The position numbers and the translations under genes are program-made. The notes beneath the pieces are model-generated. The model searched no databases. It saw nothing but the letters and a program-made list of their open reading frames with translations, and was not told where the DNA came from. Shown here piece after piece: positions 8,501-58,266 of a stretch of DNA of 64,000 bases. The DNA is from Gymnopilus junonius (Eukaryota > Basidiomycota > Agaricomycetes > Agaricales > Galerinaceae), in assembly GCA_015501075.1 (NCBI GenBank), contig JADNYJ010000031.1, positions 124,001-188,000 on the forward strand, written 5' to 3'. Every line of letters begins with the position of its first letter. Position 1 is the first letter of the stretch.

Positions 8501-10445
8501 CGTATTGGACTAGCGAGCTAAGAGCATTTTTTCTTAAATTTTCGCGTTGTGATGCCCTTCATGCCTTGAGGGTGCCGGATAAGGCTAATGAGGGTGGGAG
8601 TTTAAAGGGGGAAAAGGAGAAGAGAAGAAAATTCTGAAGAAAGAAGACCAAACGTCACCGGTACCCTCGTGATTATTCGATCGGTTGGTTGCGGGGAGAT
8701 TAGGCTTATTCCCATTGTTCACGATTAGGGAGAAGGGCAGGTGCGCGTGCTAGGAAGGATTTGCGTGCGTTCGGGCTTTTGCGTTGCGGATAAGAAAAGA
8801 TGAGATGCTGGGGCCCATAGCTGGTTCAGTGATTCTGAAAGGAACCTTACGCCTAAGACGGAGATTCAATAGCTCCCATGAAACTTTTTTTAGGGATGGG
8901 GATGGGAGTGACCATTGGGATGCCTACGGTAAGTGGTAGTATTACAGCTTAAGATAGCGATGCCCAGATCAAGGTTATGAAAGTGGGTCGACGTCTCGTA
9001 GAGATAAGCTAAGATAGAATGAGGATCTAGAGTGAAACAGATACGTAGCGGACAGATGCGGGGGCAGAACGTAGGCCGGACTCCGGAGAGAGACAAAAGC
9101 GGTGGCTTCGAAATTGAGTGATGCAGTGACTGCACAGGATTTTTAAGGCAGTTAACTGGCTATAGATTAACGTAGGGGTGGGAAGTTGTGTTGAACTACG
9201 GAGAAGACACCAGAAGTAACGGGAAAGGGGCGAGGAGAAAGAAGGGAGTGGAGGGAGGAACAGGAGAAACTTTTGATATTGAGCGGACGTTTAGAAGGTA
9301 CTAGTCTCCAAGTCCAGACTAAAACTAAGAAAAAAAGAGGTTAGGATAGGTAACTGCGGGCGTTGACAGTCTGTTTGTGAATTGTGAAGTTTTGGAAAGA
9401 AGAAGCACTGAAAAAAACGTCAGGGTGAGCTAAGAATAATGGGCCCCATTGTCGTGTGCCTGGGGTTTTCATAACAATGCGTTTGATGTAGTTTCCAGTG
9501 TTTATTTGCCTGCTGTTGTGATAGAGCGCAGGATGAAGACGACGACGACGGGACTGCAGAACAAGAGGTAGAGACAAGACAAAGCGTCGCCTTCGCGGAG
9601 AAGCAGCCAGGATGTCAAGGAGAGAAAAAGATGCAGATTGAATTGTCCCATGCCTGTGGGATCGGCGGTTACGATAATAGATGCACACAAGTATCAATTA
9701 TATAATCAGAAATCAATAGAATTGCGGCAAAGCTTGGACAAAGCGCTATTTGTGATGGAGTCGAAGCGTTGGAGGAGTTGGGCGAGCTGTCATGTGTCCA
9801 GGGAAACTGGAGACAATTGCCATAGGCAATGTGAATGAAGCCGAAACAAACACTTGACGTGTATTGTGATCGAGGACAATGTAAAATGGACAGAGACCAG
9901 AAGACAGATGGCGTGCTGAATAGACGGTCCAAGCGACAAGAACAACAGGGCAAGAATGGTGGTAGGCCTCAAGGCGGCTGAGACGCATTAATTGAGGGCA
10001 CGGAGGCGGAGATAGTTGTGGTCCACAACCGATGGAAAGCGATGGAAGGATGAGGAGAAGATTGGGAATTGAGAACAGCAGTGCCAAAGGAGGACAGGCT
10101 GGATCGGCGAGTGGAATCTGGCCTACCGAGGGAGTCGGGTGACCCGCAGGTCGTTCCCAGCTGGCCATTTTAGGAAGCAAGCCACATGGAGCTGGGAAAG
10201 CGTCTAGGTGCACGAGGCGGTGCTTTGTCCGACCAGATAAGGAAGCAGATCAATTGAAACGCCACCGTACAAACAGCGGCAAACAGGGGTCGCGGGGATG
10301 AAGATATTTGATGTGGTTCCCACGGGGGCTATCTGACCTCGTTTTTACCTTTGCCCACAAATTACATTTGAACTCTGCCTGCCCTCTCTCCTCCGTCTCT
10401 CCTCTCCTTCTCATTCCCCCGTCGCTCTTCCCCCCTCTTCCCAAC
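5527..10445. other. Long non-coding stretch, no recognised gene
   Basis: About 4.9 kb without a supportable gene. Short open frames on both strands have no family resemblance and no consistent splice pattern. Visible details are clustered TGATCA-type palindromes (8260-8275 and 8440-8465), an AG-rich segment near 9185-9290, and a strongly pyrimidine-rich run (10375-10440) directly before the next gene, probably its core promoter. Confidence 0.4.
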
Positions 10446-11795
10446 ATGATGCTCCTCCAGAAACCACAAGCTGTATCCCTTTCCTCTCCGGCCTTGTACA
10501 CGCATAGGCGGCATCCGTCCGCCCCCGTTGTTGTACAGCCCACCCGCACTCCCGGCCTCCTTACCCTTTCAAAACCAATCAGACCCTCTCCACAGCGCCA
10601 GGCGACCCCCCAGTACCGCCGGGAGCCCAGGTCCGCGGTCAAGCCAGCAAAGCACGCTTCCGCCGTGGTCCGTGCGCAACCCCTTACTCCGGCGGCTGAG
10701 ATCAAGCCCCCGACCGTCCAAGCTGTACCCGCTACACCTTCCCCGCACTCTCGCGGCAGGTCGCAAGCCAAGCAGGCAAAGGAAAAAACTCAGATTTACA
10801 GGTCAGCTCGCGATGTTTGAAATTTGGTTGGTGTTGAGTCACGCTGACAATTTGCCGCCCCTCTCCATTCCAGGAGTGCCTCTCATTCTTCTCTTCGTGG
10901 CAAGCATGGACGTCAGCCCTCGCCACCCACCATCAATACCACTCAGCAAACGCAACAGTCGCAGCAAGCTCCCTCGCAGGCAGAGGCCAACGTAGTACCC
11001 CCTATAAAGTCCTCGAACCTTTTCGACCCCTTTCTCGACCATTCTAATTCTCCTCCCCCTTCTCCATCTCTCGGCTCCAAGTCCTCCGGCAAACTCGCCC
11101 GTCGCAGGCAACAAATGGCCATTCATCCACCCACTGTTCCATTGTCGAGGGCCATTCCCGTTCCCAAACCATTGCGGACCAAGACTTCTATTATTTCCTG
11201 CTCTGAGCCTTCTCTCTCGCACATGATGCAGCCATCCCAGGCCGCCACCCATCCCTCCACGTATCAGGATTTCCCCATCTGCGACGACTCGACTGAGGTG
11301 ATCGACCATGAGTACCCCTCTTTCCCATCAACCCCTCGTCGATCCACCCACGCTCGCAGTGGCCCAAATACATCCCCACTGCCAACTCGTAACAATGGTG
11401 TCTTCGATTTCAATTTTCCCCCCTCCACGCCATCAGCCACTACCGGTAAGAGGGGCACTAGGAAGCACCGACGAGTTCCCAGCGAAGGCGTCTTCAACAT
11501 GTCGTCTGACGAGGACTTATCCACCGGTCCAGGTGGTGTCGTTCTCAACGCAAGCGTGCAAACCCTTTTCGGATTGACGTTGGGCAAGAGGACCTCGCTT
11601 CCTGCGTCTCCTTTCTCTACACCAGTTCCAGCGCGTGACGCGATGGTTGCGCCCATGGGCAGCCGAGAGTCGTCACCTTCTTCCGACTCGTCCAGCGAGT
11701 CGTATGAGGCGAAGAAGAAGGCCGGCTATTTTGCGAGTTCCATGTTCCAGAACTCGCCTTCCCCAGAGGAGCTTCCGGACCCTCTCAACCTCTGA
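10446..11795 (+). CDS. Disordered protein with C-terminal PNRC/Edc1-type decapping-activator motif
   Basis: Two exons (10446-10801 and 10874-11795) join across a 72-base intron (gtcagc...ccag) to give 425 residues. The protein is almost entirely low-complexity, rich in Ser, Pro, Thr and Arg, with a Gln-rich patch. The only folded-looking motif is the last 25 residues: YFASSMFQNSPSPEELPDP. This matches the pattern Y-A-G-x-x-F followed by SPSPxxLPxP of the metazoan PNRC and fungal Edc1-like family, whose proline part binds Dcp1 and whose aromatic part activates Dcp2 in mRNA decapping. I therefore infer a cytoplasmic decapping enhancer. ATG 10446 follows a long pyrimidine tract and is preferred over the in-frame ATG at 10308, which would lie upstream of that tract. 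It is alone, with kilobases of non-coding DNA on both sides. Confidence 0.65.
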
Positions 11796-14755
11796 GTTGG
11801 GCAACCGATCGCTATCCTTTTTTCCTTTCTTTCTTGTAACACCAGTGATTTTAGAGAAGATTTAGAGGTACGCTGCGTTCTTTTGAGACCTTCTGGTCGG
11901 ATTAATCATTGGTATTCATTCAGCTCTTGGGAAATTTGTTTCTAGACTGTCATTTTTTGCCACCCCCCACACCACCACCACACGCTGCATCGCCTGCTCT
12001 ACTCGCCTACTGTTGCTCGTCGCCTCGCCTCTAGTGCTTGCTCCTCCAACGGAACCGTTGACAACTTCCCCTCGATCGCCGTCACCATCCGTCTACCCAT
12101 CTCGTCCCTCCCGCCGCAAAAGCACCTTGCACAACTACACTATACCACTTTGATGATCCCCAAAATCATTCTAAAACCAAGTGTATCAACATAATCAAGC
12201 ATTATCGTTATTCGCCTGTCTAATTCCAATTGTTCAACAACAATGTACTTTTTTTTTTGTTCAAGACGTCGCTTTTTTCGTTGTTCGTCGTCTTCGTTGC
12301 TTATTGTCGGGTGTCTTCGGGATTTTGGGACGGAGTGGAATGGGAGGTCTACGTCATCATTTCTGTTGTGGGTCGGGTCGGGTCTCGTCATCCGGCTTTG
12401 TTCCTTAACCGGATCGGCCGTGATATCCCGACGCGCGTCATTCCCCTATCCGCTATTTCTTTTCACCAAACGAAACCGACCCCTCCATTCCAACTCGCAG
12501 ACAAGCAGAAGTTTATATTTTTCCCCTTCTAACTTGCCAGCGTTGTGAGGGGTTCTGTACCTCCTTTTTTCCTCTTTTCATCTCGCAATTGCACCTGCAT
12601 CTATAGACGGCGCCTGCGCCTGCACGTCAACCATTTAACGACGCATGCATCCACCATTCCCATTCATCCATCATCATCAACTTGCATCATAACGGACACG
12701 ACGAGCAAATAACGCTAGCATATTCAAGCAAAGTATTATTTTTTCCCTTTTTTTTTCTCTCTCTCCTCTCCGCTTTCCCTTGCGGCTCCTCTATCTTCTC
12801 TATTGTCTCGTTTGGGGTTATTGGCTGTATTATTATACTCTTTTTTTTTCTGGGTTTCTGATCCCACACCACGGTTTTTGATAGACGGTTTATGGCTATT
12901 AGCTTTTTTGGACACCCGCGCGCTTTTACTTTTAGGGGGGAATCTGAGTTTAGGTTCAACTTGTTGAGCTTGAGCTTGAGCTTGGGTTTCCCCTTCCCTC
13001 CGACCGCCCGGTCCCCTCTCACCACTGTGCCCACATTACAACGTTGTGCAGTTGGTTGTATCACACCTCGTTCACTCGTCACCATCCCGTCTCTACATTG
13101 TTGTCGACGTCCATGCCCTTCCTCTTCCCGCCGTTTCCTCATCACCACTCTTCAAATGCCCAATGCATAGGTATCGAAGCGTCTTTGGCGTCTCTTCTGC
13201 CCAGCCTCTCATACCGCCTACCCACCTCTACCTACAATGCGCACCCGCATAACAACCCCATCTATGTCACCTACTCTCCTTTACTTGTTACTTTTCTTAC
13301 CTACCTATCCCACCCAGCTACTATCCTTTGGAATTTTTTCCTTGTGTTTCCCGTGTTTCCCTTTTTCCATTCCACTACGTGTTTACCTGTGTCTCTGTTT
13401 TTTTACCACCGGTTGAGATTACCGCTTACGGCTCCAACTCCCCCCCTACTTTATTATTTTTCTCTTACTTATTGTCAATAAACAAACCAAGTTGTATTAT
13501 CCACACCCCACACCCCATGTCCTCCGCATCTTATATCCTCCCCTCTTGCATCTTGTGCATGCCCTCCCTTGCATACCTTTTTTTTTTGATCATCCGAGCA
13601 TTGTCCTATATCCATAGCTTCTGTTTCTTGTGTTGCAATGCGAATGCAAAACGCGATGTTGATAATTATCGTGTGATTCCATGCGATGTCTGACGGACAT
13701 GTCGAGGATGAGCTGTTGTTTGACATTGTCGCCTTGAGCTCTAATCAGCGACTACCGGCTTCGCGTCGTTCACGCTTGCACACTTTTCTTTCAGTGTAAC
13801 CCTGCCCATTCTTTCACTCGGCTCGTCGTGTTTTTAGTATAATCATAATCCTCTTGTCTTTTCAATTATTTGGTTCGTTTTTTTTTTTCATTCGTTCATG
13901 GTCTTATTCCATTCCGTTTGTTTTTATTTTGCCGGACATTCTCTTGTACCCTTCCTCTGTTCTGTCTTTTCTTTTTGTCCTGCTTTTGCTTTTGCTTTTT
14001 TTTTCTTAATGAGTGTCGCGGCTGTCTGTTTGTTCCTTCCTCATAACTCCCCCCCTGCCCAAAAAATCTGTATCAAGTATCGGCCCTCGTTCTCAGATTG
14101 TTTCTGCTTCTTGTCCTTGCATACCCATCAGCAACAACAGCAACGTCAATGTAGCTGCCGTCTCCCTTGGCTCTGCGTTCTCCTCCGTCTTCCTGCATCC
14201 CTACGCAAGATGTATGCGCCGCCTTCTATTTATTTTAGGAGTCGCGCGCTTTTGTTAGGTATGTGTCCTTTTTTTTTTCTTTTCTTTTGAACTGGGACGT
14301 TGTGAGGCTGAGCGCTGATGGATTGTGTCTTTTTTTCTTGTAGGCTTCTATTGTCAGGTCGTACGTTGAGGATAATGTTTGTAGTGTAAGGGTTCTGCTG
14401 CTTCATCTTTTCTCGTTGTTCTTTTTTTTCATGGATTTTCAAGTGGTTTGCTCAACCTCTTCTTGCTTCTGGCTTTTCACTCTCTTACTTTCCCCCTTTT
14501 TTGTGTCTTTTTCTTTTTTCTTTTCTCCCTATCCTGCATGATCAATCGTGGACAACAAAGATTAGCACAATCTTCAAATACCCAATACCATCATCCAATT
14601 GCAACGTGGACATCAACACCTCATCATGTTCTCCAAACCCAAATCAGACCAGACCGTGACTATGGCCGTGGCCAATCCGAAACCAAAACGCAAAGCCAAA
14701 GCAAGGCATAGAATGTACCACCACCATCACACCAAATCATTGATTCGATTCATTG
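11796..14755. other. Pyrimidine-rich 3-kb non-coding region
   Basis: Downstream of the PNRC-like gene the plus strand is strongly C+T-rich for about 3 kb, with many T runs of 8-10, CT-rich blocks and a short tandem array of about GAGCTT units near 12966-12985. Open frames here are made of low-complexity residues and are not supported. It could be a long 3' untranslated region, a non-coding RNA or the regulatory region of an unrecognised gene. Confidence 0.4.
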
Positions 14756-54406: not shown

Positions 54407-55385
54407 ATGTCCTCCCAATCCCAACGCCCTACCATCATAATACGGCCCACAGACGACGCAGCACCTGTGCCACCATCAGTTCGTGAACGCGATCCTTTTT
54501 CATCCGTAGAGGGCAGTCCTCGCCGCGGTGATCATGAAGTCAAAGGAACAACGGGACAGATGCCTTCTACGTCGGCCAACATTTATGAAGCACCACCGAT
54601 TACCGTACGGCCTGATGATGGTAGCTCCGACAACCACACGAACGAGTCACCGCAGCATAATGTCAGTCAAGGTTTCCACGCCAGTTACGCGTCGCAAACG
54701 CGATCCCCCCGTTTTTCTGAAGGACGTTATCCTGATCCACGGCCTCCGATGCAACGGCGATCCACAAGAGAAACTCACACATCAAGTTACACGAACCCAA
54801 AGTTCAAAGCTGATGGCAGTGTTGAGATTGTAGAAGCCGGCTATGTTGTGTGTTGACTTGCGTCTGCCAAACCTAGTCTTTTTAACTGGTTTTACTTGCT
54901 AGGCATCTACCCTTTCCGATCGATTACAGCCTACAATCAACTCTGCCACCGAAGCGAAGAAAAATCCGCCAGGACGGCGACGTTGAATACCTGGGTTCTT
55001 AATGCCGCCATTGGCTTGCAAGTTCTTCTTGGTTCATTGACTACCGGTCTATCAGCCGTTGCGGCAACTGGAGGTAAATCGGTATGTGCTTGATGTTCGA
55101 CTTCAATGTATAACGCATCTAACTGCGCCAATATTAGAGCGCTGTACAGACAACTATTCTAGGCTCGTACCTTTCCTTCATTCCACAACAAGGGGCTTGA
55201 CTCGTTTCCAAATTTCTAGGCGGTTTGTCAACGATTGTAGCCTCTTACCTCGCCAAAGCCAGGGGTTCAAATGAACCTGACTTTTCCAATACTCGCGTCA
55301 AAAATCTTGAGCAGTTCTTAAGAGATTGTGATGCGTTCGTAAGGGATTATGGGCACGTGGTCACGGAAAAGGACGACGACGATTT

Positions 55386-56122
55386 CAAGGGGGTCCCGGG
55401 CCGTAAATCCCGGAACGTACCCCGGGCGGTTGGTTCCAAGTTGGTTCGGCCGTCAGGCTGTTAGAAAATTTTGGGAATACCCTCCATAGGGCACAAAATT
55501 GGTAGGAAATATAGCTCAGAAGTGACATACCAAAGTGGATTCATGCACAGAGCAAGTCTTGGATGTATATTTCATAGAGAAAAAGTAATAACTAGTCTGT
55601 AGACATGATATTGGAGGTTATTATATAATGATCAGATAAGATCAAGATAAGACAAAACATAGCCCAGACTACAGGCATAGGAGAGCGACGAAATCTACAC
55701 TTCGCAGTCTCAAAATAGGACGGAAAGGCATCATATACAAGGGCTGGATGATTTCTTGTGTGGCCTAAGGGTTGATCCGACTGCCGACGATGTAATTGAA
55801 TGCAAAAGACCTGGATGTGAGATGAGATGGGTGAGTATTCCTATGATTATTCACATATATTCTCCCTAACAAACTGAATCACTGTTTATCTCATTCTAGT
55901 ACCATCTAATATGTGTATCTGCGGATCAAGCGCCACACAATTGGGCTTGCAAGGCTTGTACGAAGTCCAAGAGTGGACGAGGAGGAAAAGTAGCATGGTG
56001 ATGATGTCATATTTCCTAATTTAGATATGCAGATCAATCACGTGAATGGGCAGTTGGTTCGAGGAGGCCGTTAGAAAAAATATGGAGGATAGTTGACCAA
56101 TTTATATCCTGGTACCCCCTTG
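55386..56122. mobile_element. DNA transposon (non-autonomous, 737 bases) with 8-base target duplication
   Basis: The left end reads CAAGGGGGTCCC and the right end, on the complementary strand, CAAGGGGGTACC, giving terminal inverted repeats with one mismatch in the first 12. The flanks carry the same 8 bases, gacgattt, at 55378-55385 and 56123-56130. An 8-base target duplication is typical of hAT elements and occurs also in some other cut-and-paste families; I cannot assign the family firmly. The inside carries a small coding remnant of a PHD-like finger (see 55742-56001) but no transposase catalytic block. The SLATT reading frame runs up to one end and away from the other. Confidence 0.8.
55742..56001 (+). 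pseudogene. PHD-like zinc-finger fragment inside the transposon
   Basis: Reading plus strand from about 55742, the sequence gives GLDDFLCGLRVDPTADDVIE, then C-K-R-P-G-C-E-M-R-W, an intron (gtgagt at about 55830 to ctag near 55900), Y-H-L-I-C, W-A-C-K-A-C and a stop at about 56001. The C-x4-C ... H-x2-C ... W-x-C-x2-C spacing is the C-terminal part of a PHD-type finger. Such fingers are common near transposon genes of Agaricomycetes. The rest of the gene is missing, so this is a remnant carried by the non-autonomous element. Confidence 0.5.
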
Positions 56123-56303
56123 GACGATTTAAACAAACAACTAATAGGCAAGAGAAAGCGCCTAGAAGAAATTCTAGGCAATATCAATGCTCCCGATACT
56201 AACAAAAGGTGAGAGCCTTTGCTTGCATTCATTTGTTCTGTTTGGGGCTAATACATCTCTGACTAGGGCCGCGACCACGGACAAGTCGGGATCTCCTGTA
56301 TAG

Positions 56304-56819
56304 TTGCGCTATCTTCCTTTTTTTCCTGGGAAACAGGTGTTCTTCAGCTTTCAAGCATTATTATACCCCGTACAGTATGTAGTTTTTCATCATGTTATTA
56401 TTCCCTGTTACTTTCAGATCTTCAGTTCCTCTCAGGGGAGTACTACAATACACGAAGAACAGTCTCCCCTTTCCCTCTAACGTTTCTCCGTGCGACTCCT
56501 TCCAGCATTCTAGGCATATCTGTCGGTTTGCTTTATGCCGTCAACAGCGTAAGGGCGCCTTCCAAAAACTAACACAGCTCTAGAAGAGGGGAGTCAGGAA
56601 CGTGAAGAAGGATTATTTTTTCCAAATTTCCGGGTCTGAATTTGACATGATCTCTATTATTCCTCCAGAGGTTTAACAAAGTCGGTTGGCTACGGGGACC
56701 TGCTTTTTTTCCCCAGATTTGCATCCCTTGGCGGGGTTTCACCAAAAGATTGCCTCATAGATTAGTAAGCAGAAATTTCCTTTTCCTTTTACGCCCATGA
56801 GTCATGAGCACATCTTCAG
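56304..56819. other. Short intergenic region
   Basis: About 0.5 kb, AT-rich, with T runs. Nothing recognised; includes the likely promoter of the following APH-like gene. Confidence 0.3.
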
Positions 56820-58266
56820 GATCTCAGAGCTCTGACTCTGAAGACGACCCGCAAGTCGAGTTCACTTCCAAAATCGTGGACTAGGATGCTCTCTCTTCCC
56901 TGCCCTGCAAACATTTTGATGTTGAGTCATCACTGGGGTGACCAACTTTCCGGAGGATACAATCTTGCCCGTTTTTTGCACCTGCATGACTCTCAAAATA
57001 CGACGCTCGTCGCCCGGGTACCTTTGAGATCCGAGGATGCTATGTCACCGACGCACGGTCGTGCCATTTCGAAACGCCTCGAGAGCGAAATTGCTACCAT
57101 GGATTACATTGAACGGTTCACAAACATACCCGTACCGCGTGTGTACCTTCATAGTGACCACTCAGAGCAGCAAGTACGGTCACCTTATCTTCTCATGTCG
57201 AAGGTTGAAGGTGTGCCTCTTGTTAAATTATGGGACAAGATGGACGACGACAAGCGGCTCGTTGTGCTGCGCCAGGTCATTGATATCATTTTGGAGCTCT
57301 GGTCCCATCGCTTTGATAAGACCGGTGCCCTGTTCAGACGACCTGAAGTGGGTGATGGAAGGGTTCCTGGTTCGTTGAATCTTCCTCAATGCTTTACGGA
57401 CCCGATGAGACTGATCCCGGGCGGTTCTTAAACACCATGTCTTACCGTCACGCTGCTGAATATTGGTTAGCCTACGCGAATGCAAAAATCCAAAGCATAC
57501 GCGATGAATGGTTTGGTAACAAAGATCAACTTGAAAATGCAGCCTTCTGGTTCATGCGCTCTCTCATTCCTGCCTTATACGACCCTTCTATCGATGCTCA
57601 ACTTGAAGGTTTCCCTCTAAATCATGGCGACTTCCACTCTCAGAACATCATGATCGCCACACCCACCCTCGTATTACTGCAGTGATCGATTGGGAACTTT
57701 CTGGCACGGATTTTTCAACAAGTTTGCTCAGTATCCTCTTTTTATCGTCGATCATCCGTACTGGAAAGACGACAACCCCTTGCGTGAGCGAAATGTACGC
57801 GATCAAGCTACCTTCGACCAGCTCATTCGTGAAGGGGAACAGAAGCGCAAGGCAGTCGGCAGCCTGCAACTTTCACGTCTCATTTGCGATAGCTATTGGA
57901 ATTTATCTCTTCCAGCAGGTGATGACAAATACTTTATGGATGTTCTCGCCAGTCTACCCTCTGCTCTTTAAATTCGTCTTTGGAGACGATACTGAAGATA
58001 GCGACGACGATGACGAAAGCAGTGACGAGGAGAAATTCTCATTCTCCACGGGGTACTATTGGGCACTTAGGACGAAGGGAATACTAAGGAAGGACGAGGA
58101 AGCTTTGGAAAAGGATCACTTAGTATGGCTCGAAGCAAGAGATGTTCTAGGCGAAGCCGAGGTTGGTAACAGGATGGAGAGGGCAGAATTCAAGGAACTG
58201 GTCTCGAGGCATGCAGACAGTTTCGCGGAAGGAGGCAAAGTATGTTCATGGTTGGAGTCGCAATAA
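56820..58266 (+). pseudogene. APH-like phosphotransferase gene with several frame breaks
   Basis: Reading in pieces the sequence is a fungal APH/protein-kinase-like phosphotransferase: ALSSLPCKHFDVESSLG, QLSGGYNLARF, TTLVARVPL, SEIATMDYIERFTNIPVPRV, SPYLLMSKVEGVPLVKLWDK, RHAAEYWLAYANAKIQSIRD, GFPLNHGDFHSQNIMI (catalytic H-G-D-F-H-x-x-N), then VIDWELSGTDF and QYPLFIVDHPYWK, and an acidic C-terminal part ending in WLESQ. The pieces are in different frames: changes near 56935 (L-G to D-Q), 57385, 57660, 57715 (T5 run) and 57950, plus a possible in-frame TAG at 56882, unless a 30-base intron spans it. Each piece is long and unbroken, so decay is either recent or the base calls are short in homopolymers. 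Confidence 0.7.

Follow-up and report, generated by a model that had tools for sequence, protein, structure and literature searches.

A short non-autonomous transposon, probably of the P superfamily, in a SLATT-domain gene of Gymnopilus junonius

Within a 64,000-nucleotide stretch of the Gymnopilus junonius genome (assembly GCA_015501075.1, contig JADNYJ010000031.1, positions 124,001 to 188,000; hereafter the window), a gene for a protein with a SLATT domain is split by a 737-bp insert at 55386-56122. The insert begins with CAAGGGGGTCCC, ends with GGTACCCCCTTG and has the octamer GACGATTT on either side (55378-55385 and 56123-56130); its coordinates, matched ends and 8-base flank were all reproduced from the initial annotation. 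The parts of the gene and of the insert described below lie on the forward strand, the two octamer copies being unstranded. The terminal inverted repeats, at 55386-55408 (starting CAAGGGGGTCCC) and 56100-56122 (ending ACCCCCTTG), have 23-nt arms with 78% complementarity, and a chance 8/8 flank arose 3 times per 200,000 draws of random 737-bp segments of the window. Neither CAAGGGGGT nor ACCCCCTTG occurs in the 64-kb window besides the insert's own. A subterminal motif, AGGCTGTTAGAAAA, is located at 55455-55468 and recurs at 56065-56078 (AGGCCGTTAGAAAA) in direct orientation.

The interrupted gene is composed of a first exon at 54408-54847, which matches the N-termini of its relatives (3' border by eye), a second at 54903-55080 with the first part of the SLATT_fungal domain, a small exon at 55138-55162 (SAVQTTILG; borders by eye), and an exon that the insertion has cut into 55220-55385 and 56126-56209 (DLNKQLIGKRKRLEEILGN...). 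The family PF18142 (SLATT_fungal) is matched above its curated cut-off of 26.5 bits in two stretches, 54857-55090 and 55201-55461 (scores of 36.5 and 52.4 bits), but the gene differs from the family in that no complete domain stands in one open gene: the match ends in the cut exon at position 101 of the 121 in the profile, and a frameshift lies upstream. Relatives in Galerina, Hebeloma, Psilocybe and Crassisporium continue unbroken to a C-terminus (e.g., ...KRRRFEELLGNANG) with which the right-hand piece in the window aligns, and KRKRLEEILGN, proposed at the outset as the end of the SLATT protein, indeed aligns with their conserved C-terminal KRRRFEELLGN. Other SLATT matches in the genome are found at three places on contig C556, one on C534 and one on C477 (scoring the same as one on C556), with single rows reaching positions 119-121; one of these has an internal stop. 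The part in self/non-self recognition suggested in the initial annotation is hypothetical, and the role of SLATT as a pore-forming effector is a prediction, made for prokaryotic conflict systems in the relevant passage of PMC7159879.

The insertion leaves the frame intact at its site, as each of the two duplication copies falls in phase 0 of its frame. Read through as it is, the left frame enters the insert and reaches a stop at 55462 after 25 foreign codons, by which the last ~20 positions of the domain would be lost. The claim that the frame closes exactly once the insert is omitted holds at the insertion site only, because a separate frameshift lies upstream: that the exons sum to an open frame was not confirmed, exon 54903-55080 being shifted with respect to 8/8 relatives, and the last exon and its stop were checked by eye. 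In this shifted exon, the segment before the transmembrane core matches 8/8 relatives in one frame (0/300 shuffles each), whereas the core matches 8/8 by score in a different frame (85-115 vs 13-17 for the other frames); the shuffles cover the upstream part and the downstream part was judged by scores. Intron 55163-55219 begins with GC where a paralogue has a GT donor (by eye). Judged by its sequence, the SLATT gene seems not to be intact in other respects.

Either the gene was already decaying before the insertion or the assembly is in error at the frameshift. Because of this upstream frameshift, the element may well have hit a gene already in decay. The alternative, that the gene was intact until the insertion and that the frameshift is an assembly or sequencing error, we consider possible but rather unlikely; the frameshift is a short one within an A-rich stretch, a common type of error, and the remaining exons align well with relatives, but the GC in place of the donor GT argues against it. 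So does, weakly, the lack of a protein record from this contig (301,278 bases) among the 120 of 227 SLATT matches listed, given the length window of that search and that annotators may have overlooked the gene. An empty allele did not appear: a genome search with the left flank, the right flank being outside the search, gave one match, the locus itself.

Copies of the insert were searched in its own genome (58.0 Mb, 898 contigs), yielding 41 match rows with near-complete coverage at 12 places, the window included. The other 11 near-complete copies are 86-98% identical to the window copy (BLAST); those at C50:96157 and on C354 are covered from base 58 onwards, with a short left-end piece and a gap near the left end. 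When all 12 are aligned together, the two closest copies, on C124 and C522, each differ from the window copy by an 11-bp segment private to the latter (55429-55439), one gap and two substitutions. A sister group of ~841-865 bp, represented in the alignment by four copies, is 73-76% alike in the left part and ~70-72% in the right. For flank scoring 19 rows were cut out, truncated copies being left out, and 8/8 duplications were found in 18 of them (14 as cut, 4 after the end was set one base inward at CAAGGGG), two of these rows (L029 and L030) representing a single locus present twice. The exception, L036, has a 5/8 flank and a mutated left tip. The insert is thus short and multi-copy, with inverted ends, a duplication and no transposase coding, as in a miniature inverted-repeat transposable element (MITE). 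That a transposon has inserted into a SLATT-domain gene and duplicated 8 bp there, and that the genome has further copies of it, was thereby borne out; we regard the insert as a small DNA transposon that moved recently, and the insertion itself is well supported.

The family copies also bear on the assembly and on the possible silencing of the repeat. L029 (C354) and L030 (C50) are 99.6% identical, and a second element locus is likewise doubled (L046 on C199, L047 on C889); the flanks of these two recurring loci are ~99.0-99.6% identical, which suggests that the assembly includes some sequence from second haplotypes or from recent segmental duplication. The 12-copy alignment has 74 variable columns, 64 of them with transitions and 51 with changes of the CpG to TpG/CpA type, a pattern expected if methylation drives the decay of a silenced repeat. 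Two long copies, L034 (5.4 kb) and L037 (3.1 kb), were rejected as autonomous elements since both contain nested insertions, a Copia-like one with a polyprotein of 1,263 amino acids and a Tc1/mariner-like transposase, respectively (named by eye).

A remnant of a transposon gene is carried inside the insert. Its first coding exon (55681-55830, its 5' border taken from the open frame) ends ...IECKRPGCEMRW, followed by a GT..AG intron at 55831-55899 and by a second exon at 55900-55998 (YHLICVSADQAPHNWACKACTKSKSGRGGKVAW), which appears to encode the C-terminal half of an ING-type PHD finger and a basic tail before the stop. The second-exon pattern is present in 11/12 near-complete copies and missing from the one on C320. 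The PHD-like remnant noticed in the initial annotation finds support: the window tail alone matches the ING4 PHD finger at E 3.2e-5, in an alignment that takes in the W preceding the F/Y-H of the motif, and a profile of seven relatives finds it at E 2e-6, where the best of 2,000 shuffled tails reached E 0.0026. A profile of nine tails (the seven relatives, a 5,973-bp element described below and the window) retrieved ING/YNG1 PHD fingers from the PDB, with a best E of 2.6e-9. A Pfam scan at E 1 with the two remnant exons separately gave no PHD family. At one expected Cys the window copy has F (DDFLC), in contrast to the DDCLC of several sister copies, such as C82 and C896 (translated by eye). 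ING fingers read methylated H3K4, and the W before YH is part of their binding cage. The tail resembles these fingers in its ING4 match and differs in that the predicted finger would end a transposon protein; it most likely derives from the 3' end of the parent transposon's coding region and is not a captured piece.

A genome search with this tail reached longer elements among its weak matches. One of them, a 5,973-bp element on the minus strand of C138 (L054), has the tips CAAGGGGGT...ACCCCCTTG and an exact duplication, GGCCACAC, and an internally deleted relative of 3,263 bp is found on C109 with the duplication ATTGATAC. The longer element encodes a P-type transposase and ends in a PHD-like exon, ...CRVPGCKTIW / YHLVCIGL..., whose tail matches YNG2 at E 2.7e-4 and whose intron sits at the same W/YH codon junction as that of the insert (by eye). 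The two elements share their 9-bp tips, and the left subterminal region of the window copy resembles the right subterminal region of the partner better than all 200 shuffles, as do 3/3 other family members tested (the shuffles preserve dinucleotides approximately only).

We conclude that the insert is very probably a non-autonomous cut-and-paste transposon of the P superfamily, recently inserted in the last part of the SLATT-domain gene. It shares with that superfamily the 8-bp target-site duplication, found 8/8 in 18/19 rows, and the terminal inverted repeats with 23-nt arms; a subterminal motif stands near both ends, as a direct and not an inverted repeat, and matches the partner at one end. 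The RNase H fold with its D, D, D(2)H, E signature is found in the transposase family of the putative partner and not in the insert itself. The parent would be an element whose protein combines an RNase H core of P type with an ING-type PHD finger at the C-terminus and a zinc-finger-like N-terminus (by eye), and from which the insert may have arisen through internal deletion, to be moved in trans by a transposase of the parent's kind. The transposase lineage comprises at least 193 protein relatives.

Several observations weigh against this assignment. No intact element was recovered that combines CAAGGGGGTCCC ends with a transposase, L034 and L037 being the longest two copies with these ends, and a P-type transposase was absent from 16/17 loci by tblastn, the sole match being L054. 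Both these tips and a P transposase occur together in just one of the elements recovered, and its DNA is hardly like that of the insert beyond the tips and the subterminal motif, so that it can at most be related to the element that mobilises the insert. No CAAGGGGGT/ACCCCCTTG ends were seen in the ~1.5-kb flanks of 12 P-transposase loci, a result of little weight, since the 5,973-bp element is among these loci and its ends lie farther out. None of the 11 transposase relatives scanned exceeded a Pfam cut-off, and the modelled P0018 has K instead of E at 537. The PHD pattern is present in 7/120 transposase relatives among the matches listed, many of them fragments, and in 6/23 of those with more than 450 amino acids past the LE motif (17/23 are without it), so that the tail is not established as general in the lineage. 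Besides these points, a PDB sequence search with one transposase gave nothing convincing. On C13, where a left end lies in L035, a transposase search of the adjoining L041 gave no match; C121 and C429 each carry a right end of the form CCCCCTTG together with a PHD-like exon, but the sequence covered there has neither a left tip, at up to one mismatch, nor a transposase.

Duplications of 8 bp are also made by Zisupton, by a Dileera family and usually by hAT elements, according to the part of PMC12730594 that treats them, and KDZ transposases are plentiful in this genome (79 PF18758 match rows). The insert could accordingly be a non-autonomous member of KDZ (Zisupton/Dileera) or hAT, similar to the P-type partner only at the ends and the PHD exon. 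We consider this improbable, as the sole element recovered with these tips and a transposase is P-type and shares both the PHD exon and the intron site. The CAAGGGGGT end was found at 0/12 KDZ loci in flanks of ~1.5 kb, too short to settle the matter, and L010 has a loosely similar GGGCACCCCTTG. KDZ, to which the ends and the 8-bp duplication had at first pointed, was dropped because the element that shares tips and PHD exon carries a P-type transposase.

Splicing of the insert appears unlikely from the sequence, and that it is an introner-like intron with the SLATT protein made normally is hardly credible: although the insertion keeps phase at its site and 7/15 GT/AG pairs close to its borders are frame-preserving, a GTRNGY donor is found at 0/5 GTs near the left border, paralogues and orthologues are continuous across the site, and the upstream frameshift would persist even if the insert were spliced.

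The putative P-superfamily element described here has counterparts in Basidiomycota. P elements of rust fungi (Repbase P-1_MLP, P-2_MLP, P-N1_MLP, P-N2_MLP and P-1_PSt), published in 2011, likewise have 8-bp duplications and both autonomous and non-autonomous forms (PMC3164196); their hosts are rusts and not mushrooms, the likeness is by description only, and the passage of PMC3164196 concerned makes no mention of a PHD finger. The Drosophila P element and the zebrafish THAP9 transposon also have 8-bp duplications, inverted ends, internally deleted copies and an RNase H core with D, D, E, as in the transposase family of our partner element. They differ in their THAP DNA-binding domain, which is not found in fungi according to that review, in subterminal repeats that are inverted where those of the insert are direct, and in that the relevant part of the review mentions no PHD finger (PMC7776569). 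The fold of the transposase matched RAG1 far more weakly than it did the P transposase. RAG2 has a PHD finger, and in RAG1/RAG2 a DNA-cutting RNase H enzyme is likewise paired with such a finger, but on a separate protein. In the literature searched we found no publication on a PHD-tailed P lineage in mushrooms; Repbase was outside this search and such elements may be catalogued there.

Other features were observed along the way. An APH-type phosphotransferase gene lies just downstream of the SLATT gene at 56808-58266 (PF01636 in 56808-57428); it is spread across several frames and may also be interrupted. The window shows a strand asymmetry in 10001-14000, with a GC skew of -0.29 and an AT skew of -0.34 in 12001-14000. 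A different element of 955 bp (positions 1455-2409 of L053, on C109) has CAAGGGGGTCCCGCCGG inverted ends, an 8/8 duplication (GTTATTGC) and an open frame of 159 amino acids with no Pfam match above cut-off.

The element is, in our reading, a variant of the known P superfamily assigned through its partner, and the story of its host gene is weaker than the initial annotation held: the split SLATT gene would represent ordinary transposon damage to a gene perhaps already decaying. It can be speculated, quite tentatively, that the ING-type PHD finger fused to the P-type transposase of agaricomycetes recognises methylated H3K4 and directs the cutting or insertion towards genes that are active, as a single-protein counterpart of RAG1 and the PHD finger of RAG2; if such targeting holds, the exon insertion seen here would be one outcome of it. 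The element points to an unnamed P-superfamily lineage of mushrooms that is hardly recognised by Pfam and has an ING-like PHD end in some members. Such a PHD-ended lineage would make chromatin-guided P-type transposition testable outside animals.
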